A stretch of DNA of 64,000 nucleotides from Orobanche coerulescens. Taxonomy: Eukaryota; Streptophyta; Magnoliopsida; Lamiales; Orobanchaceae. Positions 18,995 through 62,100 of the stretch are shown piece after piece. The notes under the pieces are model-generated. The model worked only from the letters and a program-made list of their open reading frames with translations, was not told where the DNA came from and did not search any database. How positions within the stretch are numbered: the first letter of the stretch is position 1; the number at the start of each line of letters is the position of its first letter. Both the position numbers and the translations under genes were made by a program. The stretch covers positions 174,148,501-174,212,500 of the forward strand of contig CM065809.1 in the NCBI GenBank assembly GCA_033398695.1, written 5' to 3'.

Positions 18995-19190
18995 AGGCGA
19001 TCGACTATAATGCCGAGCGACCGAGTCAACTCCAGTCAAACTTTGGCTAGCTTGCCTAATCGAAGACATCATACCACCATCAGGTACCTAGCGATCGACT
19101 CCCAAGGCGATCGCCCTTTGGCAGCTGGCGATCTACTCTAGTGACCGGCTAAGGGCAATCGACCTACGCCCCGAGCAGAGACGATCGCCC
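18995..19190 (+). promoter_or_regulatory. Array of GGCGATCGCC-like palindromes in solo LTR B, distal part
   Basis: Perfect GGCGATCGCC at 19106-19115; variants AGGCGATCGAC (18995), TAGCGATCGAC (about 19089), GGCGATCTAC (19128) and GACGATCGCCC (about 19180). The core CGATCG is constant in most. Confidence 0.75.
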
Positions 19191-19306
19191 GTCAAAGTCA
19201 TCAAGGACTGAATCTCAGAAAAGCACCCACGTGCAGATCCACAAAGGCGCTGACATACGAGATCTTCGCTGACAGACAAGATCTTTTGCTGACATACAAG
19301 ACCTTT

Positions 19307-21186
19307 TGTAACACCCTCAAGATATTCGAGGTATATTACAGCGCCGTGAATCCCTATATGGGACCCACCAGGCTGAACAGCATCATACTCATCGACTCAC
19401 ATAAACGACAGAACAATACCGTGTCATAAAGACGCAAAACAGAATAATCCACCCGGTTCAACCGGTCAATATAACATCATCATCCAACACAACATAATAA
19501 GCAACAATACAATCCGAACGAACAAGAACCCCTTAAGTACTCGAGTACAACTATTAGTTCAAAACCACAAAAGATTAAAAGGTAAAAGACACTAAAACGT
19601 CACTCGTGCACAATCATCACGCACGGCCATCATCCGTATCTTGGTCAATGCCCGCTCGTCTCGATGAACCTGACCTAAAATTCATAAAACGAATTTCCCC
19701 AAAACGGGTCCCCAGAGGGGTTAGCAATTACGCTAGTACAAGTAACCAGATGAACAACTTACATCTTACACATATAGTAAATGTATGCAATAGAGAAAAC
19801 CGTTCGAAAACACTCATTTCCGGAAATGCCAATATCAAATCACATTTGTAAAATTTACCACAATTAACCGTCGATCCACACCTCCGTGGACCCCTACCGA
19901 GACCCCGTCGGATCTAACCCGTAGTGGTTAAAAGCAAAGCTCGTCGATCCACACCTCCGTGGACCCCTACCGAGACCCCGTCGAGTCTAACCCGTAGTGA
20001 GCATACACACACACAATTTCTCATACAAAACTACTATGTCAAGATTGTAAGTTCATAAGGATACTTGCCTCGATTAATAGACGGTGACACGAACGGAACG
20101 GAAGAATCAAGCACAACCACGAGGAACCGGCGAAAATGAACCTAACGATTCGAATAACACAATCACAACCAACTCTAGACGATTACGGAAATGGAATACA
20201 CCCGGAAACCCACCTACGATTCATGTATATTCGTACCAAAAATAACAACGAGGGCGGACCACAACCAAACCCTTTCGATTCCGTAAAAATCCACAAAATA
20301 TCCATGAATCCGTAGGAAAACTAAAGATACTAACAATATTAATCATATACATCATGAATCCATCAACAAAACGGAACTAATCGGAAGAAAATCCCAAAAT
20401 CCCCAATTATCCAAAAGGGAGGGTTTCAAGAAATAATACCTTTGGAGATTCAAGTCCTAAGATCCGTAGAACACGCGTTGGATTGATCGTCCGGGCTTCA
20501 CTACCGAAGAAAAATGGTGGAAATCAACCCCTCAATGGATGAAGACGAAGAACTCTTCCCCTCTCTCTCACTCTCTCTCGCGATGCAGGTGAAAATGAAG
20601 GAGAAATGGTCGATTTCGTCTAATAAAGACGAAGTTGCATGGTTGACCGCATTGTGTGCCGCGGCACAGCCGAAGTGTGCCGCGGCACAGGCCAAAAAAT
20701 TACTCCCAGGTTTCGGCATTGTGTCGCGGCACGGCCTGCGTGTGCCGCGGCACCCGGTACAGGCGGGTTTTGGACGCAGATGACACACAAGTGTGCCGCG
20801 GCACCGGACAGTGTGCCGCGGCTTGCGGCTGTGCGCGGCACCGGATGGGTGTGCCGCGGCACAAGACTGATTTGTTCGACCAACAACTGAAGGAATTTGT
20901 GTGCCGCGGCGCACACACCTTGTGCCGCGGCCCACACCCCCTTTTGGGTTCCAAAATGATAAAAATGATCCGGAAAGAGAATAAAACGATAGGAATCAAT
21001 ATTTGGGAACCAACAACACGAAATGGATCCACGGCAACCCCGAAACGGCGGTTCCGCACAACAATGACGAGAATACAGTTCAACAGTTTGACAGGAAGGA
21101 CACGCTGAGAAGAACACGAGGGTCACTACGATCGAGAAATACACCAAAAAAGAAAATACCAGGGAAAGAAAAATACGGATATTACA
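19307..21186 (-). repeat. 3' LTR of element C
   Basis: Closely matches 26059-27916. Contains a tandem pair of CGTCGATCCACACCTCCGTGG-type blocks (19868-19995) and a palindrome array at 20656-20934. Confidence 0.93.
20656..20934 (-). promoter_or_regulatory. GTGCCGCGGCAC palindrome array, left LTR of C
   Basis: Perfect 12-bp palindromes at 20656-20667, 20677-20688, 20742-20753, 20793-20804 and 20851-20862, with near copies at 20721, 20813, 20901 and 20922. Spacers differ. Located in U3, upstream of the expected promoter on the minus strand. Confidence 0.9.
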
Positions 21187-21224
21187 TTCTACCCCTCTAA
21201 AAATAAGTTTCGTCCCGAAACTTA
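21187..21224 (-). other. PPT and adjacent hairpin of element C
   Basis: On the minus strand TTTTTAGAGGGGTAGAA abuts the LTR. Immediately inside, TAAGTTTCG (21204-21212) and its complement (21216-21224) form a 9-bp stem with loop TCC on the plus strand. The same stem is present in D and E. Confidence 0.75.
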
Positions 21225-22700
21225 AGAAACAAACAACTCCGGGTACCTAGCACGCATGCTATCCTCGGTTTCCCAAGTTGCTTCCTCGACACCGTGTCTC
21301 GACCACTGCACTTTCACCAAAGGGATGGTTTTATGCCTCAGTCGTTTCTCACGATGCTCCAAAATCTTCAAAGGACGCTCCTCAAAAGTAATATCTTCAG
21401 CAATATCAATCTCGCCATAATCGATGACGTGACTAGGATCCGGGACATATTTCCTCAACTGGGAAACATGGAAAACGCTATGAACATGACTCAAGGCCGG
21501 AGGTAACGCCAAACGGTATGCCAACCCACCTACTCGCTCGAGGATCTCAAAGGGGCCGATAAATCTCGGACTCAACTTTCCTTTCTTCCCGGCGAAAAAC
21601 TCCCTTCGTCGGCGACACCTTTAGCAAAACGTGGTCTCCCACCTCGAATTCCAAAGGTCGACGACGGACGTCGGCATACGACTTGCCGACTCTGGGCAGT
21701 CAACATCCGTTCCCGAATTAATTCTATCTTCCGCCTCGTCTCTAGAACGACATCCGGCTCAGTCCCGACCAAATCGGACGCCTCATTCCAACAAATCGGT
21801 GATCGACATCGCCGCCCATAAAGTGCCTCATACAGTGCCATCCGAATCGACGCGTGCCAACTGTTGTTGTACGTGAATTCGATCAGCGGCAAATGTTCCT
21901 CCCAGTCACTACTCCAATCGAGAGCACAGGCACGCAACAAGTCCTCGAACGTCTGGATAGTGCGTTCATTATCCCATCGGGGGATGAAAAGAGGTACTCA
22001 AACGCAACCGGGTACCCAACGCCTTATGCACCGCCTGCCAGAAGTGCGATACAAAACGGCCGTCACGATCCGAAACAATAGACTTCGGAGTACCGTGAAG
22101 TCTCATGATCTGCGCGATAAACACACGAGCTAACTTCTCCGGGCCCCAAGTGTCCTTGATGCCCAGAAAATGTGCCGACTTGGTCAGGCGATCAACAATC
22201 ACCCATACCATATTCATGCCCGACCTCGATCTCGGCAAACTCGTAACGAAATCCATCGATATATCTTCCCATTTCCATTCCGGAACGGGAAGTGACTGCA
22301 ATAACCCAGCCGGTCGCTGATGCTCGATCTTGACCTGCTGACAAGTCAAACATCTCGCTACAAACTGTGCGACCTCATCCTTCATATCATTCCACCAGAA
22401 GTTTCTTCTCAGGTCCTTGTACATCTTACTCGAACCAGGATGAACGGAATAAGGTGTAACATGGGCCTCCCGTAAAATACTCTGTCTCAACTCTGAGTCG
22501 TTCGGCACACAAAGCCGACTCCGAAATCTCAAAATACCATCCTCGTGAATCACAAACCCAGGAGACTTTCCCTTAAGAACATTCTCTCGGATTTGAGTCA
22601 TCATCGGATCCTCATCGCTTGACTTAATCTCATCGATCAAAGACAGCGAAATTTCCAAAGCACGAAATTGTCCGCGATTCCGACAATGTAACCTCAACAT
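21222..22700 (-). pseudogene. Integrase with C-terminal chromodomain, element C
   Basis: The first block (22700-21969) shows the HHCC zinc site (H...H in [15 protein letters not shown], then CLTCQ), the first catalytic region MDFVTSLP and VSDRDGRF with the second aspartate. The frame then breaks (FHPPMG, stop) where the catalytic glutamate segment should follow. A second frame (21940-21572) resumes with LIEFTYNNSWHAS and ends at a further frameshift. The third (21575-21222) reads [20 protein letters not shown] and ends in a chromodomain-like [17 protein letters not shown]. Chromodomains target chromoviruses to heterochromatin. There are at least two frameshifts, so it is inactive. Confidence 0.88.
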
Positions 22701-24904
22701 CTAACTCGATTAAAGCTCGCCAAGCTCGGTCGAGGCGTAAGGATCACAAGCGATCGCAATGCAATCGGTTTCCGACTCAAGGCGTCGGCCACGACGTTCG
22801 CCTTGCCCGGATGATAAAGGATTTCGAGGTCATAATCCTTAATCAGCTCTAACCACCTCCTCTGTCTCATATTCAACTCCCGCTGAGTAAATATGTACTT
22901 CAGACTTTTATGATCGGTAAAAATCTGACATGTAGAGCCGAAAAGATAGTGACGCCAAATCTTGAGCGCAAATACGACTGCCGCTAACTCCAAATCATGA
23001 GTAGGGTAGTTAAGCTCATACGGCCTCAACTGTCTCGACGCAAAGGCAATGGTCTTGCCGTGCTGCATTAATACGCACCCAAGACCCTGACCCGAAGCAT
23101 CGCTATAGACGGTGAATCCCTCGTTGCCACATGGCAACGCCAAAACCGGAGCTGAAGTCAAACGCTTCTTCAGCTCCTCAAAACTGAACTGCCTCTCGTC
23201 ATTCCAGACGAACTTCTTGGATTTCTGGAGCAACTGTGTAAGTGGTCGAGCCAGTTTCAAGAAACCCTCGACGAACCTACGGTAGTAGCCAGCCAAACCC
23301 AAGAAACTTCGGAGCTCTCTCACGTTTTTAGGCGGTGCCCAATCCAACACCGCCTCGATCTTCTGCGGATCTACACGAACCCCTACCGAAATCACGTGGC
23401 CCAAAAACATCACTTCCTTCAGCCAGAACTCACATTTCGAGAACTTCGCATAGAGTTGCTCGGCCCTCAAAATGTCTAACACTACCCGCAAATGATGGGC
23501 ATGCTCTTCCTCGTTCCTCGAATAAATAAAAATATCGTCAATGAAGACGACGACACACTTATCCAAATACTCGATAAAGACTTTGTTCATCAACTGCATG
23601 AACACCGCCGGCGCATTAGTTAACCCGAAAGGCATAACTACAAACTCATAATGTCCGTATCTCGTCCGAAAAGCTGTCTTCGGCACATCGGACACTCTCA
23701 CCCGGAGCTGATAGTACCCCGATTTCAAATCAATCTTCGAGAATTCCGCATCTCCCTGCAACTGGTCGAACAAGTCGTCAATTCTCGGCAAAGGATACTT
23801 GTTCTTGATGGTCACCTTGTTTAGTTCGCGATAGTCGATACACAAACGTAGTGAACCATCCTTCTTCCGCACAAACAGGACCGGTGCGCCCCAAGGCGAG
23901 GCGCTCGGTCGAACATACCCCGACTCAAGAAGCTCACTCAACTGCTTCTTCAACTCGGACATCTCTGAAGGTGCCATGCGATAGGGCGCCTTCGAAATAG
24001 GAGCCGCACCCGGCTCTAACTCTATAGCGAACTCGACCTCACGATCCGGTGGCAATCCCGGTAACTCGTCAGGAAAAACATCAGGATATTCATTAATGAT
24101 TGGAATCGACGAAAGCTCGACTCCACCACTCTCCGTCTTCAAGGCGTAGCACCAATAGCCGGTACACCCCTTTCGCAGGAGACTCATCGCCTTCAAGGCG
24201 TTAATGATGAATTTCTGGTTCCCCCTCTTTCGCCCGGCGAAAGAGTGCTCGGTGCCATCCTCGGCTAACATGGTGATGATCCTCGTGCGGTAGTTCATGA
24301 TTGCGCCATGCCGCTCGAACCAATCATCCCCGAGAATCAAATCCTCACCCTCAATATCCACAACAATAAGATTAGAGGGCCAAGTCCTCTCACAAATAAG
24401 TACAGAACAGTCTCGAACCTCCTGATCACCAACGATCCTATCACCGCTAGGAAGCTTAATGATGAAGGGTTCACAAGGCATCAAACAGTCGAGACTCAAA
24501 CGGCGTACACAATCCAAAGATATGAACGAATGCGTAGCACCGGAATCGAAAAGCACACTGACAGGATGAGAAAGAATATAAACGGTACATGTCGCCACGG
24601 TAGCCGCTGGATCATCGTCTTTCCGCATCTCATAGACACGCGGGTGGGCTGAGCCGACACTGGAAGCTCCCCCCTTAGAGGGCTGACCCTGACCTCTCCC
24701 CCGACTAGCACTCGGCGGGGATTGAGGAGCAAACGATCCCTGATTCACACTTGGTTCCCTAGGCGCTGGAATGGAAGCCCGGGCACCAAGAATTTTCTCC
24801 CTCTCGGCCTGACGGCCTTGTGGCCGGTGGCCACTGCGATTACACGTCGAGAAAGGGCTCAAACAAGTACGGTGATGTGGCATGTACGACCACAATTGAA
24901 ACAC
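22694..24904 (-). pseudogene. Protease-reverse transcriptase-RNase H, element C
   Basis: A 736-residue open frame. The N-terminal ~60 residues include a frameshifted zinc knuckle. The aspartic protease site is [11 protein letters not shown] (about residue 118). RT motifs include [44 protein letters not shown] and the catalytic FIDDIFIYS. RNase H follows with [25 protein letters not shown] and [10 protein letters not shown], then ADALSRK. The frame ends at a stop at 22694-22696, at the linker to integrase. The integrase continues in another frame, so one frameshift separates them. All PR and RT catalytic residues visible are intact. Confidence 0.93.
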
Positions 24905-25822
24905 TTCACATCACGAAAAGGAGCACCGGTAGTTCCACGAGGACCCCAATGAACGAGCCGACCACCGCCGTGAGGAAGTTAGCAGATTGGGATCTCTGCT
25001 GACCCCCACTCTTGTGGCCCGAAAAGTTCCCAGCGGACTTCTGCTTCTTACTCTCGTGGGCCGCCTCACTCGCCGTCACAGACATATCATAAGCAAGGGC
25101 CCTGCTCTGGTAATCTTTCAATGTAGTGCATACGAGCCCCGACATATAGTCCCGAATCGGCAACTTCATCCGTCTGGAGAAATGGAAAATTTTGTCGCTC
25201 TCCTCGACAACTTGGGTCTTCACATAACCCAACTCCTTATTAAAATCAGCAATAGCTTGAGATACGGGGATATCCCGCGGTTGAGCATCATAAAAAGCAT
25301 GTACCCGAGGCACATCGGCGGCCACGGGCAATATTCAGCCTCCATCAATTCTTGAAACTCAGTCCACGAAGCAGCTTGGTCTTTGGGCCCAACGGCCTCC
25401 CACCAGTCCGTGGCGTCCCCTGAGAGAAAGTATTGAGCAATAGGGACTTTACGGTCCTCGGGACAGTTAGTGGCAACGAAGACCTTAGATATCTCCTTGA
25501 TCCACCCTTCCCAGCCAATCGGGTCTGAAGCTCCCGAAAACTGAGGAGGATGCATCTTGATGACATCTTGGAGCCAACGGTCCGCTCCGCCCCGATTAGC
25601 ATGGGCCTGATCCGGGTTCTGAACCGCCTGAGCTATCGCCGCCATTTGGTTCACCATTTGTTGCATAACGGCCGCAATACCAAGATCGGCACGCTCCCGA
25701 GAAGAAGCATGGCTATGACGGTCGCCGATCGCCGGCTCGAAGATCGTGACGTGGCCGCCCCACCGGCCGCCCCACGTCCGGCGCGTCCACGACCACGACG
25801 CGACCACGACCTCTTCCGGCAT
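24880..25822 (-). pseudogene. Gag, element C
   Basis: The frame from 25822 to 25220 includes the retrotransposon gag core (MHPPQFSGASDP, WIKEISKVF, YFLSGDATDWWEAV, SWTEFQELMEAEY). A frameshift near 25340 moves the remainder to the frame at 25331-24906 (KIFHFSRRMKLPIRDYMSGL), and a third change near 24900 leads into a zinc knuckle (CFNCGRTCH). Gag would form the particle shell. Broken by at least two frameshifts. Confidence 0.85.
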
Positions 25823-26058
25823 CCATACTGGAGTTAATAAGTAGCGAAGCCATACGAGGATCGGTCAATAAAAGAACAATCACAAGTCGAGAATCAAAGT
25901 ACGATACAAGGAATTAATGAACAGAGGAAGGAAAACTTACGGACCGGTAGTACTGGAATCATGGCAACGTGTGACGATGATGTGCAAAACAAAACACCAC
26001 AAGACCCAATAAACCGACAAGCCTAGGTATCCATAAACACAGGCTCGATACCATTTTA

Positions 26059-27916
26059 CGTAACACCCTCAAGATATTCGAGGTATATTACGGCCGTGAA
26101 TCCTATATGGGACCCACCAGCCGAAACAAGATCATACTCATCGACTCACATAAACAGCGAACAATACCGTGTCATAAAGACGCAAAGCGAATAATCCACC
26201 CGATTCAAATCGATATAACATCATCATCCAACACAACATAATAAGCAACAATACAATCCGAACGAACAAGAACCCCTTAAGTACTCGAGTACAACTATTA
26301 GTTCAAAACCACAAAAGATGAAAAGGTAAAAGACACTAAAACGTCACTCGTGCACAATCATCACGCACGGCCATCATCCGTATCGGTCCAGGCCTTGCTC
26401 GTCTCGATGAACGACTGAAATTCATAAAATGAATTTCCCCAAAACGGGTCCCCAGAGGGGTTAGCAATTACGCTAGTACAAGTAACCAGATGAACAACTT
26501 ACATCTTACACATATAGTAAATGTATGCAATAGAGAAAACCGTTCGAAAACACTCATTTCCGGAAATGCCAATATCAAATCACATTTGTAAAATTTACCA
26601 CAATTAACCGTCGATCCACACCTCCGTGGACCCCTACCGAGACCCCGTCGGATCTAACCCGTAGTGGTTAAAAGCAAAGCTCGTCGATCCACACCTCCGT
26701 GGACCCCTACCGAGACCCCGTCGAGTCTAACCCGTAGTGAGCATACACACACACACAATTTCTCATACAAAACTACTATGTCAAGATTGTAAGTTCATAA
26801 GGATACTTGCCTCGATTAATAGACGGTGACACGAACGGAACGGAAGAATCAAGCACAACCACGAGGAACCAGCGAAAATGAACCTAACGATTCGAATAAC
26901 ACAATCACAACCAACTCTAGACGATTACGGAAATGGAATACACCCGGAAACCCACCTACGATTCATGTATATTCGTACCAAAAATAACAACGAGGGCGGA
27001 CCACAACCAAACCCTTTCGATTCCGTAAAAATCCACAAAATATCCATGAATCCGTAGGAAAACTAAAGATACTAACAATATTAATCATATACATCATGAA
27101 TCCATCAACAAAACGGAACTAATCGGAAGAAAATCCCAAAATCCCCAATTATCCAAAAGGGAGGGTTTCAAGAAATAATACCTTTGGAGATTCAAGTCCT
27201 AAGATCCGTAGAACACGCGTTGGATTGATCGTCCGGGCTTCACTACCGAAGAAAAATGGTGGAAATCAACCCCTCAATGGATGAAGATGAAGAACTCTTC
27301 CTCTCTCTCTCACTCTCTCTCGCGATGCAGGTGAAAATGAAGGAGAAATGGTCGATTTCGTCTAATAAAGACGAAGTTGCACGGTTGACCGCATTGTGTG
27401 CCGCGGCATAGGCCAAAAAATTACTCCCAGGTTTCGGCATTGTGCCGAGGCACGGCCTGCGTGTGCCGCGGCACCCGGTACAGGCGGGTTTTGGACGCAG
27501 ATGACACACAAGTGTGCCGCGGCACCGGACAGGTGTGCCGCGGCACCGGCCTGGCACTGTGCCGCGGCACCGGATGGGTGTGCCGCGGCACACAGTACAG
27601 TTTGTTCGACCAACAACTGAAGGAATTTGTGTGCCGCGGCGCACACACCTTGTGCCGCGGCCCACACCCCCTTTTGGGTTCCAAAATGATAAAAATGATC
27701 CGGAAAGAGAATAAAACGATAGGAATCAATATTTGGGAACCAACAACACAAAATGGATCCATGGCAACCCCGAAACGGCGGTTCCGCACAACAATAACGA
27801 GAATACAGTTCAACAGTTTGACAGGAAGGACACGCTGAGAAGTACACGAGGGTCACTACGATCGAGAAATACACCAAAAAAGAAAATACCAGGGAAAGAA
27901 AAATACGGATATTACA
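26059..27916 (-). repeat. 5' LTR of element C, preceded by its primer site
   Basis: Partner of 19307-21186. The first base of the terminal TG is mutated to C. The tRNA-iMet-like primer site lies at 26042-26053, five bases inside. Confidence 0.93.
27396..27662 (-). promoter_or_regulatory. GTGCCGCGGCAC palindrome array, right LTR of C
   Basis: Perfect palindromes at 27463-27474, 27514-27525, 27535-27546, 27559-27570 and 27580-27591, plus variants at 27397, 27441, 27631 and 27652. Copy arrangement differs from the left LTR although flanks match. Confidence 0.9.
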
Positions 27917-28085
27917 CCTTTGACCACAGCCTGTCACCTACCTCACCTACCGGCACGTGCGCCGAAAGTTGTCAGTGGGACCACCCGTGACAGCAACTCA
28001 GGATGCGTGTAAGCTCCCCATTGGACCTTACAGTTGACTGCCAGCAACTCCTGCAGACTTTAAGGGAACAAGCCCATGTGCTAAA

Positions 28086-28151
28086 GGACGATCGCCCGAT
28101 TATTATAATGCGGAAAAGGCGATCGCCCGGCATACCCAAGTCCTATAAATA
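28086..28151 (+). promoter_or_regulatory. Core promoter of solo LTR B with proximal GGCGATCGCC palindromes
   Basis: TATA box TATAAATA at 28144-28151. A perfect GGCGATCGCC at 28118-28127 and a variant at 28087-28096 lie 17 and 48 bp upstream, continuing the array of the other half of the LTR. Confidence 0.75.
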
Positions 28152-28774
28152 GAGAGCCTCCTCCTACTGGAAAAAGGTTCCCAATTCATTTGACCTACGG
28201 TTCGGAATTCATTTCACCAACAGTTGATAACTCATCCACTTATATTCCGACTTCATTCACGGAAATACAGTGGAACACACATATCATCAAGCTCCCGGCT
28301 ATCTCACTGGAATCCATTTCAGGATTTCTCTCTCCAAATCTCTCGTCCAGAAGACGATCGGCAGAGGCAAGAAGTCCCCACAAGGCAGATTCCAAGAGAT
28401 TCATAAGCCCAGGAACTCAAGCATCCAGCTAAATACTCGCCGTGAGAGACGGTCGATCTCTCACCGCCGCGACTGTTCATCTCCTTTGTTACAAGAACTC
28501 ACAGAGCATCAAATCTGGTTCTTCCGGCAATCTACACGCTCACTAGCTAAGATAACAAGAATCTTTACACTCATTGTAATTGTATTCTTACATTAGTACT
28601 TGTATCCCCGAATATTGGTATTAATAATATCTCGCGAGAGCATTCAAGCCTGGGACTAACAACCCCGGCAAATCTTGTGTTATTTATCTTTCTCACGTAA
28701 GTGCTCATGCATTTGTTTGCTATCCCATCCATTCCAGAAATATCTATCTCCGGATAATATTTTGGGTAGCAACA

Positions 28775-29190
28775 CTCGGATCTGAAGGTGTTTCACCTGA
28801 TCAAATGTCACAGGGCGGTTCACCCTTACTCGGATCTGAAGGCATTTCACCTGATCAGATGTCACAGGGCGGTTCACCCTTACTCAGATCTCAAGGCGTT
28901 TCACCTGATCAGATGTCACAGGGCGGTTCACCCTTACTCGGATCTGAAGGCGTTTCACCTGATCAGATGTCACAGGGTGGTTCACCCTTACTCGGATCTA
29001 AAGGCATTTCACCTGATCAGATGTCACTGGGCGGTTCACCCTTACTCGGATCTGAAGGCGTTTCACCTGATCAGATTGCACAGGGCGGTTCACCCTTACT
29101 CGAATCTGAAGGCGTTTCACCTGATCAGATGTCACAGGGCGGTACCCTTACTCGGATATGAAGGCGTTTCACCTGATCAGATGTCATTTC
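28775..29190. repeat. 54-bp tandem repeats of element II, right part
   Basis: About 7.7 units of 54 bp (18 codons), highly similar. Each unit has TGATCA and an inverted pair GGGYG/CACCC around GTT. Both strands stay open because the period is a multiple of three; the 18-residue peptide repeats this implies are not evidence for a protein. The array separates integrase from the antisense ORF. Confidence 0.95.
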
Positions 29191-29274
29191 TAGTTTTACA
29201 CATTCAAAGATATTTTATTTGTAATAGACTTTTATTAAAACAACACAAGCTTCTCTCCACACTTCTTCATACAA

Positions 29275-34191: not shown

Positions 34192-34220
34192 GTCTCAGCT
34201 CAAAGTGACTCTATGTCACA

Positions 34221-45370: not shown

Positions 45371-46382
45371 TGTAACACCCCAAACTAGGCGGATATTACA
45401 GTGCCGTGGACCCCCGACTGGGACCCACCAGGCGAATGAAAACTAACGAATTAAATAATATAATTGTAGTACCGAACCACATTATATTATCAAATACTCC
45501 GATGAGGAGATTAAGTACAATACACCAGGACAATACAGAATACTAGTATATTTTATATGAAGATAAAATACACCACCCTGAATAAATAAACATCTCAAAC
45601 GGAATTTGCAGAGGAAATACATATGAAGAGAAATAAGAATGACTGAAAGGACTGGGGCCCCTACTAGTATCATTGGGACTCCTCGCCGTCAACGTGCTCT
45701 TCCCGTGCTTTTGCCTTGCCATGACCTGAAAACAATATCCCCCAACGGGGTCAGTTACATAGAACAACAATCCTCCAGGGTTGAATATACACAATCATGA
45801 TATATCTTTAGTTATGAAATATCCTTAGTTATGAATTTAAGCTGAAAAGGAGCATCATAGTATGCCTGTAATGTTCTGTGCAAGTGTACAAGACGAATGA
45901 CCGGACACACCCGTCCTTGTACCTAATTAGTCTCACGGAGGTAAGCGTTACCGTGTGCACAGTTCAATGTATCGGTGAACCCAACACATGACTATCGTGT
46001 GCTCGACTAAAAATTCCACACATCCACACCCGGCCACGCAATATGAACCTAGAAGGTCATATGAACGAGAATGGCCAAAATGAATATCAATGAATAATAA
46101 TCCGACAAGGTCAAGAATGACTCACAGAGATGAAATTAATAGTGAAGTGAATGATAGCTCAATGAAATGATTGGAACCGTCGTTCCTCGTGAACAAAGTG
46201 ATTATTCGACAATTACAAGTCTCAATACAGTTAATACATTATGAATGAGTTATGATTATGAATGAATCAACAAAAAAAGGAATGAATATCCTTTTAACCG
46301 AGTAAGAATTAACTTACTCAACACCGGTGAACAATGTCCTTCTACGAACAAACGTCCTAAATGAGATGTCGGTCGGTCGAAC
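45371..46382 (-). repeat. LTR of element E, distal part
   Basis: Starts TGTAACACCCCAAAC; shares GCGGATATTACAGTGCCGTGG with other Tekay LTRs. Interrupted at CGAAC by element D and resumed at 55514. Total LTR length about 2.56 kb. Confidence 0.85.
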
Positions 46383-49300: not shown

Positions 49301-49727
49301 TAGCGTGCGCTAACACTACATTACAACATCCGTTGACTTACCAGAACGTGCGCCGAAAGTGGCCTGGTCCACACGCAGATTCCTTCCGACCTGACTGCAT
49401 TAGCGTGCGTTATCTTATATCCGTAGCGTGCGCTAAACCTGCACGATAGCGTGCGCTACTCATGATTATTAGCGTGCGCTAATAATGTTACACTTAGCCA
49501 TTTTCAGCTATTCTTGTCCAATCGTCTCAACATACAGAATACGAACATACGGCATACTGAATACATATACTTCTTACATCCAATTGTCGACCAAGTACGA
49601 CAATTATACCAATACAGATGTCTTGGTCCTTCAATTATTTTACCCATACTGTACAGATTCCACGCTGTACAACATAACTCGGATAAAATAATCTTAAATA
49701 ACAGTAGTGGAAATTCCGGATATTACA
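46383..49727 (-). repeat. 3' LTR of element D
   Basis: 3345 bp. TATA box TATATAAG on minus at 48990-48997. Small reading frames within it are repeated in the other LTR and carry no recognised domain. Confidence 0.93.
48990..49481 (-). promoter_or_regulatory. Core promoter and TAGCGTGCGCTA array, left LTR of D
   Basis: Nine exact 12-mers lie upstream of the TATA box: starts 49009, 49032, 49050, 49074, 49194, 49301, 49425, 49447 and 49470; a tenth is at 48262. Variants such as TAGCGTACGTAA (49148) and TAGCGTACGCAA (49171) intersperse. The 12-mer is a palindrome except for the central TG. The first copy is about 12 bp from TATATAAG. Confidence 0.92.
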
Positions 49728-49765
49728 TACTACACCACTTAAAATAAGTTTCGTCCTCGAAACTT
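49728..49765 (-). other. PPT and adjacent hairpin of element D
   Basis: On the minus strand the tract TTTTAAGTGGTGTAGTA abuts the LTR. AAGTTTCG (49746-49753) pairs with 49758-49765 around TCCT. The stem matches those of C and E. Confidence 0.75.
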
Positions 49766-52041
49766 GCAATCCGTCATAAAAAACAAACAAACATACCGTT
49801 CAACCAAAATATCCCAAAACCATCACGACAACGATTAGTCATCATTATTACCGAATAACCAAAATAGCATACTTACATATGCGCCAAGTCGACGATCATC
49901 TGAGATACTAGCAAGTGACTTCACTGAAAAGTCTCAACACGCTTACAATAACAATTCCATAAGTCCCAACCAGATATATTATCGTCAGATGAAATAATAT
50001 ATCCGTGTCAGATCTTGTCTTCCTGATAGCACAATCAGATCCCAATCCGGATACAAATCAATAATACACAATACAACTGTGAAACAACTGCCCAAAACAA
50101 TGACAACAGACCCCGAAATATCGACATAACGTCCGAACGCTCATACGATCGTTAACGATGATCAATCAACAAATTAGCCAAGAATATCATCGACATGATA
50201 AACTCTAATTCGACCATCCAAAGGTCAAAACACACTTCGAGAATACTTTCACACGGTAAGCTCCAACATGGTCAACACGTAACCACTAAACAAATATACG
50301 AAAGAACAAAATTCTCAAAACATTAAACAAATCACATACAGTGAATCTCAACGAAACACAACCGACTGGTGAACATTCCCCTCGGCATACGAACAACCAA
50401 TCGCAAATCGATGAACATACCAATCATAAGTGGAGTGGGAACGACCACTCAATATTCAAAGCAACCAGCATGGGGTCACCATCTCCAATGTCTCAGTTTC
50501 ACAAAACCCACAGTTCCAAAATTACATCCTGTGCATGAATTCTACATCCTGTAGCATATTCTTCTTACCGATCAATCGACCGATCATCCCTAGATAACCA
50601 ACTACCATACTAAAGTTCGAATCTTTATTCATCGTACCGTACTGATGCCTTATACAGTTTGTGAGTCACACTCATAACTCCATCATGATATGCATTATGC
50701 ATTAAATGCGTATTTATATCGATCATATTTTCAAAACCAGTTTGAAATCATATAGTCTCGTCAAAAGACAAATTTCCGAAAGTTCTTTCAAAATTTTCAA
50801 AACTCAAAACATAAATTTTTCGTAAGTCCACGAAATCAATTTTCGAAAAAATTAAATCGGCTCGCTGGTGCCAAGTATTCGATAACAGTTTCCTTCGATT
50901 CTACACGATTTCGAAGTTTCAAATGAAAACTATGCAAATGCTGGACTACATCCATATTATTGTATACCAATTTGGCTCGCTATTCCATCGGAGAACCACA
51001 CGATAAAGTTCCGAAATTTTCAATATATAAACTCCGACTAAAAACTCCTTTTCCACATATGACTCGCAAAGTCAATCATTTTCCATCCTGGATCACCTCA
51101 ATTATGCTATGACAATACATTGAAACAAATCAACACAGCGAAAGACTTCCCGAGAAGTTTCTTTTGAACAAGTAATCCAGAACCCCGAAAGGCAGGAACG
51201 ACATAGATAAACGATTGATAAAGTGTTTTACAAGTCTCGGGAGTTTTTAAGAAAACAGAAAAGTCTTTTGAAATATTAGGGTCTCAGCCCGTATCTCATT
51301 CCGCATTACAAGAAGTTTAAAAAGTAGAAAACCCTTTTTCGGACCCCAAGTCCTGAGTTATAAAACAATTTCAAAAATCTATTGGGTCTCGGCCCAAAAA
51401 TCATTTACGGTAAAACATCCGTAAAACATTCATTTTAAAAAGTACAATTTTCAAATGCTCAAAAACAGTTCATATATCATAAAATGAATTAACATGACTA
51501 CATGTTCTCCTGAACAATCCACAATATTTCTTCCAAATGCACAACCCCATTCCAAAGCTTAACCGACATATTGATTTCCAAAATCATAACTTCTCAAGAT
51601 CATCAATCCTGTCCCAAATCTGTCATCTTATACTGTAACGCATAATATCTTTCTGAACCTCAGAACATATCAACTTAGAACAACAATAAATCTCAATGCA
51701 ATTCAAAAATCCAATACTTACAGATCGTGAAGCCGACGATTCCCCGTGATACTAGCACACGTCTCGACTCAAGAAAATACTCGACACAGATATTTTCAAA
51801 ACACACATTTTGCAAACTCAGTTCAACTCGAGAAAACAACACAGCTCTATCTGAAGAAACACGTTAATATTATTTGGAAAAGTTTATAACAAGACCAGTA
51901 CTACACTGGCAAATCGCACAACGCATAAGCCCGAGTGAACAACAAAAACTCACGGCTCCAATATTTTTCAATCGACAACTCAAATGACGCGACAGAAACA
52001 CGACCCAACTCGACCCGACTGCCTAGGTTTTCTCAACCTAA
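49766..52041 (-). other. Non-coding interior of element D
   Basis: No gag, PR, RT or INT motif in any frame. Contains repeated words such as GGGTCTCGGCCC/GGGTCTCAGCCC (51290-51400). The primer site follows at 52042-52053. Confidence 0.8.
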
Positions 52042-52058
52042 GCTCTGATACCATATTC

Positions 52059-55000
52059 TGTAACACCCCCAGATCCGATCGGGAATATTACAGTGCCGTG
52101 GGCCCCGAGATGGAACCCACAAGGCTGAAGGAAATTTCACAAACATTTACAAACGCCCAAGAGGCTAACGACGGTATTATCTATTAAAAACATTCGAAGA
52201 TTTATAAAACTCGTTTATCAAACCGTCGTAAAAACTCATTTGAACCCACAAGGCCCAAAATGCCAAAACTCAACAGTTTAAAAACACATACGTTAAGCTA
52301 TCATTTACACGTACCGACAGAATAGATTTAGAAAACGATTGCCAAAGTAACCTAAGTTACCAGATACCAAAAAGGTCATTTAAAAATACTCACGCAGCGG
52401 ATAAAGACAAACAATTAAAATACTCTAGCAGTGGAATACAACAACTGATCAGAAACTCAAAACACAAATACATGCCCTTGCCAGTATCCTCCGGGAAGTT
52501 CATCTCTCCACGACCGCTACAAGCTTGATAATCCAAGAACCTAAAAATAAAGCCCACGACGGGGTCAACCATAATATCCAACAATGATAACCATCACATC
52601 TCGTCAATAATTACATATCAATGGAAATACTAAGTAAGAATACGACCAATGAAATCTTACCGTCGTAACTTTACGAGAATCCACGATTCGTATCCTTAAC
52701 AACACATTAAAATAATACCGAAATATTTGTATGGTATCTCAACAATACTCAAGGTTCTCAAAACATTATCATAACTCGCGATACGGAAATTATACCAACT
52801 CTGGCCAATTCAATCCATCGGATAACATCGACAATTCCAATACGATAATCGATTGTCCATCAAAGACAAGTATCAAGGAAATACGGAACATACCTCAAGA
52901 TACGAAATACCATTACCATCACGTCAGTCTAATCCGAGATCAGATCAACACAACATACGGACATGGTCCTAACACAAGACCTACAAATGCATACTCATAT
53001 GACAACGTCAATATGATCACAACAATAACGACAATGTATACTTATGGCAAACCCATAATATATATATGCACAACAACAATACATATGGTAATCCAACGAT
53101 CCAGCGCACACAGCTATAGATTCCCATGATGATCCCATCGGACCAACGCATGCTGGCATTACCTGTCCAGCGATCCAGCGCACACAGCTATAGATTCCCA
53201 TGATGATCCCGTCGGACCAACGCATGGTGGACATACGACAACAATGCACAACTGCACAAAACAACCGTGCACAATACACGACAACAACAATGCACAAATG
53301 CATGACAACAATGATACACGAATGTATCACGACATGATCGACACAAATGACAGAAATGATTAAAATATTTGCTCCGAGTCCTTCGAGAGCAATCTCGATA
53401 TCTAAACCATCACCAACCATTATTCTGAATATTCACCGATCCAAAACATCACGGACGGTAGATAACTCACGTTTTTGTCAATACCATGATGTATCCTCGA
53501 TAACAAGTATACCAACGACGATTGTAAATCATATACATTATGATTTAAATTCCCAAAACTCGAATACAACCTATAATTCCAAATCTCCTGTGATTACGAT
53601 TATAAACATTGCTATACGAATTATAAACGAATGAAACTGAAACCATTCATTAAATATTATAAACTGAGCAAGTAATAACTTGCCTTGATACCAATGAAGC
53701 CGTTACCAATTCCTTGCCGTCGTCTACAAGTTCCTCGGCCCTAATCAAAGTAATCTACGAACATTCTCGAGCTCGACCGCAACACACGGTTGTAATCACT
53801 GATCAATATTCTCAACCTATTACAGTAATCGATAGACAACAAGTTCGACAACAATTAACAATCGATAAAACCAATTCACAAACCCAACGGCTCGACAATA
53901 TCTCGATTAAACACTAGTCGGATCAATCCTACTCAAACCAGCACGAATTTACAACCACAACACGAAAATACTGCACTTTCTGCCTTCTTAGCGCACGTTA
54001 ATCACCTAACGTAGCGTGCGCTAAGTTGCTCCCGTTAGCGCGCGCTAGGCAGTAAACGTAGTGTGCGCTAATGCTGTACAGATGCATGTTTTTCAGATAC
54101 GGATCAACTTATGGCGATTTCAAGAACACTAAGTGATTCTGAATCATGTTCAAAGCTATCAAAACAACGAAATCCGATATCCTTTAACATATAAACAATC
54201 ATCCAACTTATAATCCAAGTTCTATATCCATATATCATCTTCCTTAATATTAATACACGAAACATCAAGAACGTAACCACACTTCCTTAGTCTTCCATTA
54301 CAAAGAGTAATCATCAACAATAACATCAACATCCGAAACTGAGGAGAAGGATTAATCCACTTATCTCAAGAAAATGAACGACACAATCCAAATCACAAGA
54401 ATCATATTAATATCATCATACTCCGGTAATCCATCTCATAATCATGCTTGTCAACTTGTTCATGTAATAATCATCAACTCAAGAACATCAACATTCAATC
54501 CAAAACGAAATCCAAAGATGAAGAGTGATTACCTTTATGAAGAAATGGATTGAATTCCAAGGTTGAATCCATTTCCAAGAATCACCAATGATTTCAAGAA
54601 CAAAGCTTTAATCCATGATTTCCATCTTTAATCTTGTTAAAGATCACCACCTCACCGTGTTTGGGAACCTCAAGAACCTCCCAAAGCTCTCTCTATCGAC
54701 TGAAGGTGAAAGAATGGACGAAATGCTTCATAATACCCGTTTGTCCCTTATATAGAATACATTACTAGCGTGCGCTAAACCTTATGTTTAGCGTGCACTA
54801 CGGCCTTAGCGTGCGCTAACTGACCTTTGTTAGCGTGCGCTATCGCAGTCCATAGACTACTGTCTGGCTTCGTACATGAGCTTATGTACGTAATGCCCAT
54901 GCATTAGCGTACGTAACTTACACTATCTAGCGTACGCAAGTCCTTGCATTTAGCGTGCGCTAATATCAGTTGACTCATTTGTCTGTATGCTCCGAAGACT

Positions 55001-55508
55001 GGTCCACACGCCGAAAGTGCTGACGAGGATAAGATTCCTTTTTGTCCGATATACAGTTAGCGTGCGCTAATCAACATGCATTAGCGTGCGCTAACACTAC
55101 ATTACAACATCCGTTGACTTACCAGAACGTGCGCCGAAAGTGGCCTGGTCCACACGCAGATTCCTTCTGACCTGACTGCATTAGCGTGCGTTATCTTATA
55201 TCCGTAGCGTGCGCTAAACCTGCACGATAGCGTGCGCTACTCATGATTATTAGCGTGCGCTAATAATGTTACACTTAGCCATTTTCAGCTATTCTTGTCC
55301 AATCGTCTCAACATACAGAATACGAACATACGGCATACTGAATACATATACTTCTTACATCCAATTGTCGACCAAGTACGACAATTATACCAATACATAT
55401 GTCTTGGTCCTTCAATTATTTTACCCATACTGTACAGATTCCACGCTGTACAACATAACTCGGATAAAATAATCCTAAACAACAGTAGTGGAAATTCCGG
55501 ATATTACA
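52059..55508 (-). repeat. 5' LTR of element D
   Basis: 3450 bp. Compared with the left LTR it has a 74-bp tandem duplication (units start near 53097 and 53171) and one extra palindrome unit near 55070-55093, which explain most of the length difference. TATA on minus at 54747-54754. Confidence 0.93.
54747..55262 (-). promoter_or_regulatory. Core promoter and TAGCGTGCGCTA array, right LTR of D
   Basis: Exact 12-mers at 54766, 54807, 54831, 54951, 55058, 55082, 55205, 55228 and 55251; another at 54012. The copy corresponding to 49032 is mutated (GCGTGCACTA at about 54790), and the copy at 55082 is absent from the left LTR. Confidence 0.92.
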
Positions 55509-55513
55509 CGAAC

Positions 55514-57065
55514 AACCTTGAATAACATAATTACCAACAATCCGTTCAACAAACGAATCAAACACGAACATAATGAATTCAAACGTCGATACGACTAAAC
55601 CAAATTCATTGGGGCAATATATCAAACACGTTGAGACCAATCTCCGGTCGTTTACAACCAAACCTTAACTATACCAATATCAAAACCCCAAGAAGTATTC
55701 CAAATCAACAAAGCATCTTCAATACCATCAATAATCCAATATGAATATCCAAATTCGTGATTACAACAATAATTAATCAAAACCCTCAATTCCAACTCAA
55801 TATTCAAAGTGTTTTTGAATAACCCTTCAATAATCCAATGAATAATCATACACATCCATAATCATGCGTACATCTCTTCATACAACATGATTATAACGTC
55901 CAAAACATCATATCTCAACACAAAATCGAAATCCAAGATGTTTGAAGAATATTACCTTTGAAGATTCAAGCATTTTGATCCGATGAACACGCATTAAATC
56001 GACTATCCGAGCTTCACAATCGAATGGAGATGATAAAAACTGAACACCTAAGTGATAGATGATGGAAAAATCTCTCCATCAAGCTCTCTCTCTTGGATAT
56101 AAGTTGAAGAATGAGAAAATGAGTAAAAAGTCCCGTCCAATTCTTTATAAACTGCCAGAAGTTACGGCCGTAACTCGGTCTACTTACGGCCGTAACATCC
56201 CAGGTCAACGGCCTTACGGCCAGAATTACCATCTCGACGGCCGTAACTCGCTTCGGCCTGAAATCGCCGATAAATGCATACGGCTGCATTCCGCACTTGT
56301 TTTACGGGCGTAACTCGCCCTCGTCCAAAACACCTGCCGACATCCATACGGCCGTACCCGCACACCTTACGGGCGTAACTCGACCGATACGGCAGTACCC
56401 GGCCAAACTTACGGGCGTATGACCCCTTCATCGAAACTGACCAGGCACCATGCCTGCAACGTATGGCCGTATCCGGCCAAGCCCTACGGCCGTACCTGCC
56501 TCATCTTACGGCCGTATCTCGCCTCATCTTACGGCCGTATGCCGAGACCCTTATGGCCGTAAGTGCCATTCGTCCGAACTGGCCCGAAATCAACGAACAC
56601 CTGTTACAGCCGTATCCGACAATCCTTACGGCCGTAACTCACCTTCGTCCAAAATCACCTTGAACCAACGAATGCATGTTACGGCCATAATGTATGACTA
56701 GTTACGGCCGTAACTCGTGGCTGGACCAGATGAAAAATCCGACAACTCCGATTTTTCGCTACGATTGATGAATGATCCGACATACCATACGTATGTGAAA
56801 GTGAACAAGTCCAACACATGCCAAAGATCATACTTCCAGCACGAGACTACCAATCACGATGATAATGATGATACTCCCATCCCGACACTCAAACGGAGAT
56901 GAAATGACGATCGGTAACTGATACACGGTTACAACATGCCAAGAATGAACGCAAATGAATGAATCATGAATGATGAATGATTATTAATGAGTGAAAATTA
57001 CTGAGTGACAATTACTGACTGATAATTACTGAATGATAATAAACGAATTACAACCGGGTATTACA
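55514..57065 (-). repeat. LTR of element E, proximal part
   Basis: Continuation of the E LTR after D, ending CCGGGTATTACA at 57065. TATA box on minus in TTTATAAAG (56144-56152). Confidence 0.85.
56144..56713 (-). promoter_or_regulatory. Core promoter and TTACGGCCGTAA palindrome array of element E
   Basis: Perfect 12-bp palindromes at 56162-56173, 56184-56195, 56626-56637 and 56702-56713, with more than ten near copies between (TTACGGGCGTAA, TACGGCCGTAC, TATGGCCGTAT and others). The first copy is about 12 bp upstream of the TATA box. Core CGGCCG. Confidence 0.92.
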
Positions 57066-57101
57066 TACTCCCCCCTTAAAAAGAGTTTCGTCCCCGAAAC
57101 T
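57066..57101 (-). other. PPT and adjacent hairpin of element E
   Basis: On minus, TTTTTAAGGGGGGAGTA abuts the LTR. AGTTTCG (57084-57090) pairs with 57095-57101 around TCCC. The hairpin overlaps the end of the pol frame. Confidence 0.75.
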
Positions 57102-59232: not shown

Positions 59233-60702
59233 CTAATCTTGGATAGCCTCCATCTTCTGCGGATCAACACGCACTCCGTCTGATGAGATTACATGCCCGA
59301 GAAACGTCACTTCGGACATCCAGAACTCACATTTGGAAAATTTTCCATAAAGTTGCTTTCGTCTCAACACGTCGAGAACCTGATGAAGGTGAACCTCGTG
59401 CTCCTCTCGGTCACGAGAATAAATCAAAATGTCATCAATGAAGACAACAACAAACTGATCCAAAAAGTCGATGAAAACCCGATTCATTAACTCCATGAAT
59501 ACCGCAGGTGTATTAGTTAACCCAAACGGCATTACCACGAACTCATAATGACCATAGCGTGTACGAAACGCTGTCCTTGCGATATCCAACTATCGAATTC
59601 ATAACTGATGATATCCAGATCTCAATTCGATGTTGGAAAATACTGAAGCTCCCTGAAGTTGATCTAAGAGATCATCAATACGGGGTAGAGGATACTTATT
59701 CTTGATCGTCACCCTGTTCAACTCCCGATAATCAATACACAAGCGAAATGAACCATCCTTCTTCTTGACAAACAACACTGGTGCTCCCCACGGAGACGCA
59801 CTCGGTCGGATATAATCTTTCTCAAACAACTCCTCAAGTTGATTCTTTAATTCCTGCATTTCGTTCGGGGCCATCCGGTACGGTGCCTTTGATATTGGGG
59901 ACGTACCGGGCTCCAACTGAATTGTGAATTCCACATCTCTCTGTGGAGGCAAACCAGGTAACTCATCTGGAAATACATTGGTATATTCTCTCACTACCGG
60001 AATATCCGTCAACATTATTGGTGATTTCTCGATTTTGGTCATATAGCACCAATAACCAACACACCCCTGACTGAGTAATTTCACTGCTTTCATCAAGTTA
60101 ATGACCTTACCAGAACAGCCGTGATTACCTCCCTGAAAAATACATTCGACCCCATCGTCTGAAATGATAGTGACCATACGCTTACGGACACTAATGATGG
60201 CATCGTGACAATCCATCCAATCAATACCCAAGATGACGTCGTCTCTCGGTAAATCTACCACGATTAGGTCTGCTAGCCATACACGGACATGAAACTGAAT
60301 CGGACAATTCTGAATCTCATGATTTCCGATAATTCTTCTACCGTCAGGTAGACTAATGACATAGGGCTCACAACTAGTAGCACTACCCAGACGTAGTCTA
60401 CTCAAACATGACTCGGAAATGAATGAATGCGATGCAACAGTATCAAAAAGGGTACACACAGGTTGAGATAGAATATCGAGTGTACCTGAGATCATCCGGG
60501 CCTCCGGATCGTCGGTCTTTTTCATCTCATAAATTCGGGGCTTGCTAGTCCCAGCACCGGACGCTCCCATCTGATGACTATAGGCTCCACCTTTATTCGC
60601 TCCTGTCGTTTTGAACAACGCAGACTGAATGGCCTGATTATGAACAGCTGACTGCTCGGAGCCTGAGATGACGCCGGAGTAGGTTTGGAGTCCCTTCGGC
60701 AA
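59233..60702 (-). pseudogene. Protease and reverse transcriptase of element E
   Basis: The same frame as the downstream block, with stops at 59599-59601 (TGA), 59590-59592 (TAG) and 59233-59235 (TAG); the first and last fit C-to-T changes from CGA and TGG. The protease site reads [12 protein letters not shown], where the catalytic DTG glycine is Val. The second half has [14 protein letters not shown] motifs [34 protein letters not shown] and catalytic FIDDILIYS are intact. The two stops near 59595 lie between the RT fingers and the palm. Homologous to 22694-24904 of element C. Confidence 0.92.
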
Positions 60703-60854
60703 AAACGGGCCTTATGCCCAGCAATCCCACAGTTATGGCATCTGATAGTCTGCCTCAGACACTTGGTGCTGACATGACCAAGTTCCCCACAGTTGAAACA
60801 GGTGATGGCCGAAATGACCGCTCGGGATTGTGATTCCGTCGGTCTGGGCACCAC
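60522..60854 (-). pseudogene. Gag C-terminus with two zinc knuckles, element E
   Basis: The frame contains CFNCGELGHVSTKC and [14 protein letters not shown], two complete CX2CX4HX4C knuckles that bind element RNA, then a Ser/Pro-rich linker. A frame change near 60690 leads into the protease frame. Upstream, gag is truncated by the insertion of copia element F at 60908. Confidence 0.88.
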
Positions 60855-60908
60855 AGGAGGTCGCTCAGAGAAAGTAGAGCCCGCACGAGGCTTCTTGAAG
60901 GTTGTCTG

Positions 60909-62100
60909 TGTTGGTATAAAATCGGATATTTGCGCCGTTTTGTGCGGAAGCGAAAATAAATTGCAGAAAATAAATCACACAAGGATTTATAGGGGTTCAG
61001 CTATTAACGAAGCATATGTCCTCTCTCGATGTATCTTTTTCTTTAGGATCAAGATCAAAACCTCTACGCCTCTCTTCTATCGGTCGAGGGATTACCGTTA
61101 CAGGCTCGTCTTCTATCGGTCCGAGTAAAACCGTTTTTCCTTTTCTATTGGATAAGGAATCAACCACTCTAGCTTTCTATGGGTAATCGATAAACCTCAC
61201 TTAGATATCGATTGTGATTCTAACAATGCCGGATACTTGATCCTAATAACACCGAATCCAATCGTATCTTTTCTTTTACCTCTCGTGTATAATGTTAAAT
61301 GTATAAACACTCAAACTAATAATATAGGCTCAATATTACAACAACAACGTAAGCATATGATTCTCAGATGTATGACTTGTTTGCTTGAAGTTGTTGTACT
61401 CAAACAATACCATAGGAATGGTATTTATAGGCATTTCCCACAAACTAGCCGTTGCTGCCAGTTGACTAGCTAGCGTGCGCTAGCTCTTCTATATTAGCGT
61501 GCGTTATCGCACATTTTTGCTTTAGCGTACGTAATGTCTTTCATGTAGCGTACGTTAATCATTTTATGTTTCAGTCGAGTGGCTACTGTCCTTGACAGTT
61601 AGCGTGCGCTACCACTTCCTTTGTAGCGTACACTAATCCAATATATCCGTTGCATGACTTGTCAAAGTATCCGTTTGATATGCTGACTTTGACCTGCTTT
61701 TCCCAACGTTCTGATTGACTTGATTCAAACTGCTTAGCGTGCGCTATTCCTTCTTTGTAGCGTGCGCTAATGCTGACTTCATTGCATACGTCATTCTGTG
61801 TTTGGATTCCTTCACAACAGTAACAAGACTCGATAGTGTGCGTTAGGTATAAGGTGTAGCGTGCGCTACTTCATCAGCTGACTTCACTTCAGGCAACTTC
61901 GAACATGGCTGATATGCAGATGACTCCCGCTAGCGTGCGCTAACATATATGTCTTAGCGTGCGCTAGACATGCATTTTGCTCAGCTTTTTGTGTCTTCGT
62001 CTATTTTGTCCTTTTGCTTCGCCTCGATGTTGTTTTGTTGTTTAGCAACTTTAATCATCAAAACACAAATTAAATAAAGTGTGGAATAAATATTGCAACA
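60909..62100 (-). repeat. 3' LTR of element F
   Basis: 1192 bp. Plus-strand ends TGTTGGTATAAAATC and TATTGCAACA. On minus it begins TGTTGCAATATTTATTCC, typical of SIRE-like copia. Confidence 0.85.
61422..61966 (-). promoter_or_regulatory. Core promoter and TAGCGTGCGCTA array of copia element F
   Basis: TATA box CTATAAATA on minus at 61422-61430. Exact 12-mers at 61471, 61600, 61735, 61758, 61857, 61931 and 61955, all upstream, with variants (TAGCGTACGTAA, TAGCGTACGTTA, TAGTGTGCGTTA). This is the same 12-mer as in gypsy element D. Confidence 0.92.

Follow-up and report, generated by a model that had tools for sequence, protein, structure and literature searches.

What do arrays of short, CpG-rich palindromes do for retrotransposons when they recur, in one family after another, in the long terminal repeats (LTRs), often close to the TATA box? 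The question is raised by a stretch of 64,000 nucleotides of the Orobanche coerulescens genome (contig CM065809.1), termed the window below, in which six LTR families, B to G, carry such arrays in U3. The answer favoured here, and made fairly probable by the arrangement of the sites, is that the arrays are promoter-proximal enhancer modules to which dimeric host factors are predicted to bind. The evidence that carries it is a recurrent spacing that runs into the TATA box, the sparing of sites between family copies, and the sharing of one word by gypsy and copia elements. Loci from elsewhere in the genome are designated by L and a number.

Sites and word classes

Within the window TAGCGTGCGCTA occurs 27 times exactly, in D and F, and is a quasi-palindrome, five of its six pairs matching around a TG centre, rather than a perfect one. 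The two C LTRs together hold ten exact occurrences of GTGCCGCGGCAC and seven at one mismatch. There are four exact occurrences of TTACGGCCGTAA inside E, with six more at one mismatch and six at two; two of GGCGATCGCC inside B, with three at one mismatch; and two of TTACGTACGCTAAC in G, with one at one mismatch. Counted at up to two mismatches, C, D, E and F have 9 to 16 sites each and G has 5, the arrays being strong in the former four and thin in G and B. The arrays are positioned as follows.

18996..19189, + strand: distal part of the B array, GGCGATCGCC and near copies
28087..28127, + strand: two proximal sites of the B array, kept in 3 of 3 aligned copies
28143..28150, + strand: B TATA box, TATAAATA, starting 15 bp past the last site
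20656..20933, - strand: array of the C 3′ LTR, GTGCCGCGGCAC class, modal spacing 21 bp
27398..27663, - strand: array of the C 5′ LTR, GTGCCGCGGCAC class
49009..49481, - strand: array of the D 3′ LTR, sense word TAGCGCACGCTA, spacing mostly 23-24 bp, with TATATAAG at 48997-48990
54766..55262, - strand: array of the D 5′ LTR, with TATATAAG at 54754-54747
56160..56715, - strand: E array, TTACGGCCGTAA class, modal spacing 22 bp, with TATAAAGA at 56149-56142
61471..61966, - strand: F array, sense word TAGCGCACGCTA, with TATAAATA at 61429-61422
45062..45210, - strand: G array (TTACGTACGCTAAC and variants), lying in a fragment of an LTR that E cuts, with TATAAATA at 45024-45017

The original prediction gave each family a sequence of its own, and this does not hold. 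D, F and G form one class, with arms TWRCG..CGYWA around a YR centre, the word of D and F being identical and that of G a variant; E has the same arms around a GC centre. B has RCG-AT-CGY, and C has GTGCCGCGGCAC, of which the second letter is often different in relatives. The word TAGCGCACGCTA is present both in F, a copia element, and beside gypsy pol in L014 and L018b; with the sites masked, the flanks in F match none of 27 other array regions compared. The CpG-richness claimed for the arrays is real, at 6.0 to 11.5 CpG per 100 bp in the window arrays against 4.0 for the window as a whole.

Arrays beyond chance

That six LTR families carry palindrome arrays is confirmed by word counts in the genome, by arrays in other stretches and by a motif-free count. 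The assembly behind the genome-wide counts comprises 3.646 Gb in 1279 contigs, 19 of them long (C1 to C19, 237 to 138 Mb). TWRCGYRCGYWA, the site class of D, F and G, is found 2,337,506 times, or once per 1.6 kb, against 21,793 times for the reversed pattern; TAGCGTGCGCTA has 507,111 + 510,633 occurrences against 33 + 23 for its reversed control. The E, C and B words stand 287- to 3,900-fold above their controls (TTACGGCCGTAA 184,551 against 83, GTGCCGCGGCAC 101,126 against 26 and GGCGATCGCC 78,520 against 274). Thirty stretches (250 kb), placed arbitrarily by hand at round coordinates, hold 34 arrays of at least four like near-palindromes, and the window a further 8, against none when the same sequences were simulated once with a Markov-2 model. 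The 34 take in AT-rich and repeat-borne arrays; 22 have a listed reference word with at least two CpGs, or 23 with L027:2240, whose commonest word has two. Sites of the four classes are present at least once in 18 of the 30 stretches and at least four times in 15. When 12-mers of sufficient complexity are simply ranked by number in the first 20 stretches, the top three are E-class words (27, 23 and 19 copies, in 4 stretches), a C-class word is fifth (16 copies, 5 stretches) and TAGCGCACGCTA ninth (15 copies, 3 stretches).

The arrays are also not confined to the copies in the window, being kept in all eight F copies fetched (from 40 among the matches listed) and in both B copies fetched (from 41 among the matches listed). 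The comparison with dinucleotide-shuffled sequence that accompanied the original prediction has a divided outcome: C, D and E stand apart from chance in it, whereas B, F and G do not. Perfect palindromes of at least 10 bp exceed all 200 shuffles in both LTRs of C and in E, and do not in B, D, F, G or the array-free element A. Near-palindromic 12-mers (five of six pairs) exceed all 200 in the 5′ LTR of C, in both LTRs of D and in E, equal the maximum in F, and fall under it in the 3′ LTR of C, in B and in G.

Palindromes of other kinds were encountered in the same survey. L011:3592-4071 has 13 resembling TCGGATATCCGA, often spaced 15-16 bp, with a CGG..CCG signature and without any TATAWR in the 160 bp to left and right. 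Other words form thin CpG palindrome arrays at L037:198-458 (ACACGATCGTGT), L009:6998-7520 (TCGGTTAACCGA) and L021:3843-4452 (TCGGGTACCCGA).

Spacing and register with TATA

Spacing and position relative to TATA were counted in 25 arrays, of which the window supplied 8 and the stretches 17, with both LTRs of C and of D included; six of the 23 CpG arrays (L009, L011 twice, L021, L024 and L037) were left aside as belonging to other motif classes, cut by the end of a stretch, or short (L024). Spacing is quantised, with a mode of 21, 22 or 23 bp depending on class: in the YR class neighbouring sites are separated by 23-24 bp in 73 of 119 cases, in the GC class by 21-23 bp in 31 of 65, and in the CC class by 20-21 bp in 30 of 57. 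TATAWR starts 11-15 bp past the last site in 12 of the 25 arrays, with three mismatches allowed in the last site; the background for a TATAWR at any position of the 60 bp to one side is 8.2%. The original prediction placed the arrays upstream of TATA, which stands for B, D, E, F and G, where a TATA box follows the last site at 15, 11, 12, 41 and 14 bp, respectively; C has only a weak TTTATTAG, at 28 bp. The promoter-proximal order of distances, 23-24, 18 and 23 bp and then TATA, recurs in D, L016, L020, L025b and L038, and G ends with 19 and 23 bp. A TATA box, where there is one, falls roughly where the next site of the array would be.

Conservation of sites and spacers

When copies of one family are compared, with only the reference row defining the sites and with alignments that anchor on them, site divergence is 3-5 times below that of the spacers in C (33/523, 6.3%, against 291/935, 31.1%), D (25/240, 10.4%, against 218/657, 33.2%), E (103/1465, 7.0%, against 1245/4512, 27.6%) and F (362/8083, 4.5%, against 6194/26883, 23.0%). 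The F copies compared are 8 of the 40 among the matches listed, and F5, a truncated LTR, was left out of this count. All 98 ordered pairs, though not independent of one another, have the lower divergence in the sites. An earlier count, biased upward in that conserved columns defined its sites, had CpGs kept in 85-95% of comparisons in sites against 58-70% in spacers.

A different picture is given by the two LTRs of single insertions, where sites differ at 16 of 380 positions and spacers at 19 of 748 (Fisher p 0.15; three LTR pairs). By element the counts for sites and spacers are 5/104 and 10/153 in C, 2/156 and 3/317 in D, and 9/120 and 6/278 in F, C sites thus being slightly less changed than spacers and F sites more, the latter partly at the broken end of the 5′ LTR. 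Since sites are spared between family copies and not between the LTRs of one insertion, they appear to be kept in the lineages that spread and to be free to change after insertion. Such a contrast is as expected of promoter parts.

Lineages and exchange of arrays

How unrelated are the elements concerned? The supposition that they are so survives in part. C and E are one Tekay/Del-like gypsy lineage, being 71% identical in DNA along two segments of some 1.3 kb and having pol domains and LTR ends in common, and D, whose LTR ends are the same as those of C and E, probably belongs there too. F, in contrast, is copia. The U3 starts of C (TGTAATATCC) and E (TGTAATACCC) match 8 and 9, respectively, of the 10 letters of the Del end TGTAACACCC given in the available part of PMC4029996, and the U5 ends of both have GGG at -8 to -10, like the Del attachment sites described there. 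A chromodomain in E, at the expected end, is a weak match (Pfam Chromo, E 0.14, 12.5 bits, under the curated cut-off of 25.1). Tekay gypsy DNA makes up about 10-13% of diploid Orobanche genomes, according to the accessible text of PMC4381496.

In F the frame scanned has a gag zinc knuckle only; about 2 kb lie between its LTRs, the second of which is 3.25 kb away, and among the 40 matches listed for this LTR are seven pairs 3.2-3.3 kb apart, its own included. A polypurine tract, AAAAAGGGGGAG, is present before the 3′ LTR in four copies with no mismatch, as in Sirevirus (19 places in the whole window have it on that strand at up to two mismatches, the four tracts included). On these sequence features F is taken as a Sirevirus-like, gag-only copia element, and among the elements that could be placed, which leave out B and G, it alone is Sirevirus-like, C and E being gypsy. 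D has no open reading frame (ORF) of at least 150 amino acids, and one internal piece of a B copy, L052, has no match to the window.

One locus, L025a, is a mosaic. It is E-like, with best matches of 85-97%, in pol and onward to a point some 330 bp short of the array; the 200 bp before the array match only C-class LTRs (L029 87%, the 3′ LTR of C 85%, L033 83%), as does the array itself, at 71-83%, L026 included; and from about 50 bp past the array it is again E-like, with 80-91% to E, L019, L022 and L027b. L026, which has the array class of L025a, also matches it past the array, by up to 93%. L014 combines an E-like pol (79-91%) with a YR-class array. For comparison, E and L022, both of one class, remain alignable across the whole array, with 78-88% in each 200 bp. 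The L025a mosaic and L014 show U3 arrays to be exchanged as modules, moving as cassettes, with L025a as the one clear case, L014 as an addition and L026 as a perhaps. Recombination between co-packaged RNAs is the likely route.

A proposed host factor and its alternatives

In the mechanism proposed, each 12-bp site would be a two-fold symmetric docking site for a dimeric host DNA-binding protein, and with sites often about two helical turns apart, and the arrays of many families ending 11-15 bp before TATA, bound dimers would be held in register with the basal machinery. D, F and G, with TWRCG/CGYWA and a YR centre, would use one factor class; E, with its GC centre, B, with RCG-AT-CGY, and C, with GTGCCGCGGCAC, would use related or other factors. 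CpG methylation of the sites would block binding, a sensitivity that is plausible given the CpGs in each site. That a protein binds, is made by the host, activates, and is stopped by methylation is what we infer; a dimeric host factor bound in register is suggested by two-fold symmetry, constant spacing with changing spacers, closeness to TATA, and elements without visible proteins of their own. The common regulatory role of the original prediction is in this way supported indirectly, by TATA register, conserved spacing, lineage-conserved sites, and a word common to gypsy and copia.

A more far-reaching proposal is offered only tentatively. One dimeric, possibly methylation-sensitive, class of host factor might, in this lineage of broomrapes, be a common switch of unrelated retrotransposons, gypsy and copia LTRs having converged on, or traded, TWRCGYRCGYWA and a 23-bp grammar into TATA, with about 2.3 million potential sites and with cassettes swapped to change factor. 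If one host factor and one code did serve gypsy and copia alike, the protein that lets retrotransposons fill a large plant genome could be sought, and the genome itself supplies probe sequence, spacing and natural mutants in the form of decayed copies and swapped cassettes. The elements, given their roughly 2.3 million sites, may in addition be a sink for the factor. The contrast of change after insertion with that between lineages is a sequence-only test for functional LTR motifs, usable in other genomes.

Several observations weigh against the enhancer proposal. TATAWR is missing from the 11-15 bp interval in 13 of the 25 arrays: in F it comes at 41 bp, five have a weak TATA-like sequence at 10-16 bp and three at 28-29 bp, and four have none. 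TATAWR words are found inside a few arrays, the last site is defined at three mismatches, several arrays were oriented by their TATA side, and arrays of one family, like both LTRs of C and of D, are non-independent. Sites in B are only weakly spared (11/262, 4.2%, against 181/2596, 7.0%, in spacers). Relative to TATA, the shared word has a single orientation in most families, but it is reversed in L038, and L018a has it in both orientations. Lastly, a 300-nt piece of the E array folds as RNA better than 200 of 200 shuffles (z -4.6), which a role in RNA predicts likewise.

Such a role is the alternative that survives best, unlikely as it seems. With U3 in the 3′ end of the transcript, palindromes would pair into hairpins that feed small RNAs or processing, DNA position being secondary, and clusters of palindromes in maize Sirevirus LTRs are reported as small-RNA hotspots in the available parts of PMC5311732 and PMC10760457. 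However, the corresponding 300-nt piece of the F array is weakly structured (z -1.9, 10 of 200 shuffles folding as well), the commonest word is mismatched to itself at its centre, and RNA pairing predicts neither the TATA register nor the constant 23-bp spacing.

The original prediction named, as one of two examples and by analogy with VANDAL elements, an element-encoded anti-silencing protein; it is distinctly improbable that the sites are targets of such a protein, which non-autonomous families would borrow. The parallel holds for motifs that are family-specific, repeated and fast-changing, and VANC6 motifs are present in an unrelated element too (PMC5735166, in the text available). As to the protein, the C and E frames scanned have gag and pol domains only, and no VANC-like protein was seen in the C, D, E and F frames examined, a limited look in which the autonomous partners of D and F were not read. 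The findings agree better with a factor from the host than with one encoded by the element, since D is without an ORF of the size stated above and the part of F read has the gag zinc knuckle only. No more credence is given to the idea that the arrays bind a host repressor or mark silencing and persist because their carriers do less harm. Their CpG density would provide many methylation targets, yet loss of repressor sites would benefit an element, while no part of U3 is kept better in spreading lineages than the sites, which are often next to the TATA box. Neutral tandem duplication of a U3 piece, spread through high copy number, has a parallel in L049, where a unit of about 22 bp is duplicated with its site, but is very improbable and already disfavoured by the excess divergence of spacers in C, D, E and F, whereas changes after insertion hit sites too.

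Other candidates were set aside. Factors with brassinosteroid-response CGTGYG, NAC-type TRCGTR and SBP-type GTAC motifs each appear to suit a part of the classes but not the whole set; none is claimed. A weak insertion preference for palindromes (PMC6911290, from the accessible part) gives no account of arrays in TATA register. A strictly directional site was suggested by TAGCGCACGCTA being the only sense form in both D LTRs, F, L014, L018b, L020 and L031, and was dropped on account of L038 and L018a. A scan of viral contigs for paired sites gave 0 stretches.

Window anatomy

Two nests make up much of what is described here: A holds B, with C inside B, and G is cut by E, with D inside the E 3′ LTR; F adjoins the E coding region. 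Target-site duplications are abbreviated TSD.

18968..28774, + strand: B, a solo LTR (TGTTGTG..GCAACA, TSD CTCGG), ends and TSD read, interrupted by C and sitting in the 54-bp repeats of A
19307..27916, - strand: C, Ty3/gypsy, TSD CCTTT, LTRs of about 1.88 kb that are 95.9% alike
46383..55508, - strand: D, a non-autonomous LTR element (TSD CGAAC), its LTRs of 3.35 and 3.45 kb enclosing an interior of about 2.3 kb that has no long ORF
48239..48295, - strand: small second cluster, of D-class sites, lying downstream of TATA in D, with its counterpart in the other LTR at 53989-54070
45371..57065, - strand: E, gypsy 3′ LTR (TGTAATACCC..GGGGTGTTACA), interrupted by D, pol ORFs on its right
60909..62100, - strand: F, 3′ LTR of the gag-only, Sirevirus-like copia element, the partner LTR starting at 64163 in window numbering, outside the window
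62103..62542, - strand: F linker with the four identical polypurine tracts AAAAAGGGGGAG

An extra site cluster resembling the second D cluster is present at L018:3880-4094. Element A is gypsy, with LTRs at 14551-15226 and 34242-34918 and no palindrome array. Of its antisense ORFs at 15704-18196 the first has PF04195 and the other two have no Pfam match at E 0.001; its internal 54-bp tandem repeats, at 18834-18967 and 28774-29186, are divided by the insertion of B. A 180-bp direct repeat (12663-12842 and 13335-13514, 98% identical) lies outside the LTR elements described. Elsewhere in the assembly MatK_N has 42 matches (L039 and others), many on chromosome-size contigs with broken frames, which are probably plastid DNA in the nucleus. 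The matK of L039 is intact and of plastid type, and has its best match, among 120 listed, in Orobanche hederae, with 92% identity along the full length, in keeping with a broomrape of Orobanche type.

Comparison with known systems

Among published systems the nearest parallel is found in the repeated-motif (RM) boxes of Sirevirus (Bousios et al. 2010, PMC2829016), rather than in VANDAL. In the available part of that account the boxes are palindromic, 10-20 bp long and 3 to 14 per 3′ LTR; they form CpG islands, past which a conserved TATA follows on average by 37 bp; each element has a different word; a regulatory role is proposed; and the boxes are called Sirevirus-specific and absent from classic copia, with a CGG-CCG core in all except Tnd-1. 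The likeness lies in the many palindromic boxes per LTR upstream of TATA, only weak in C. Here, unlike there, most arrays with neighbours read sit in Ty3/gypsy, and the CGG-CCG core is found only in E (TTACGGCCGTAA), B, C, D, F and G having other cores and even the Sirevirus-like F having RCG-NN-CGY. The TATA register at 11-15 bp, the word common to gypsy and copia, and the cassette swap go beyond the account as available.

The CpG islands in the 5′ part of Del, or Tekay, LTRs (Cruz et al. 2014, PMC4029996) are similar in lineage, as judged by LTR ends, and in being CpG-rich and variable in length. In the Del cluster with all eudicot elements the island-free pattern predominates, whereas here a eudicot has a CpG-dense U3 made of palindrome arrays; the string ‘palindrom’ is absent from the accessible text, as it is from those of PMC5735166 and PMC1838419. 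VANDAL targets of VANC (PMC5735166, PMC10398659, both in part) are likewise short, dense, family-specific motifs that evolve together, but in DNA transposons and with a binding protein encoded by the element. Tnt1 (PMC1838419, in part), of which the subfamilies differ mainly in U3 and evolve in a modular manner, is comparable but is copia. In the open-licence literature, as covered by titles and the beginnings of abstracts, no report of palindrome arrays in gypsy LTRs was found. Palindrome arrays in Sirevirus, variable CpG islands in Del and the modular U3 of Tnt1 are already known; what is added here is the occurrence in eudicot gypsy elements, a word that crosses superfamilies, a quantised TATA register, the contrast in selection, the swapping of cassettes, and the scale.

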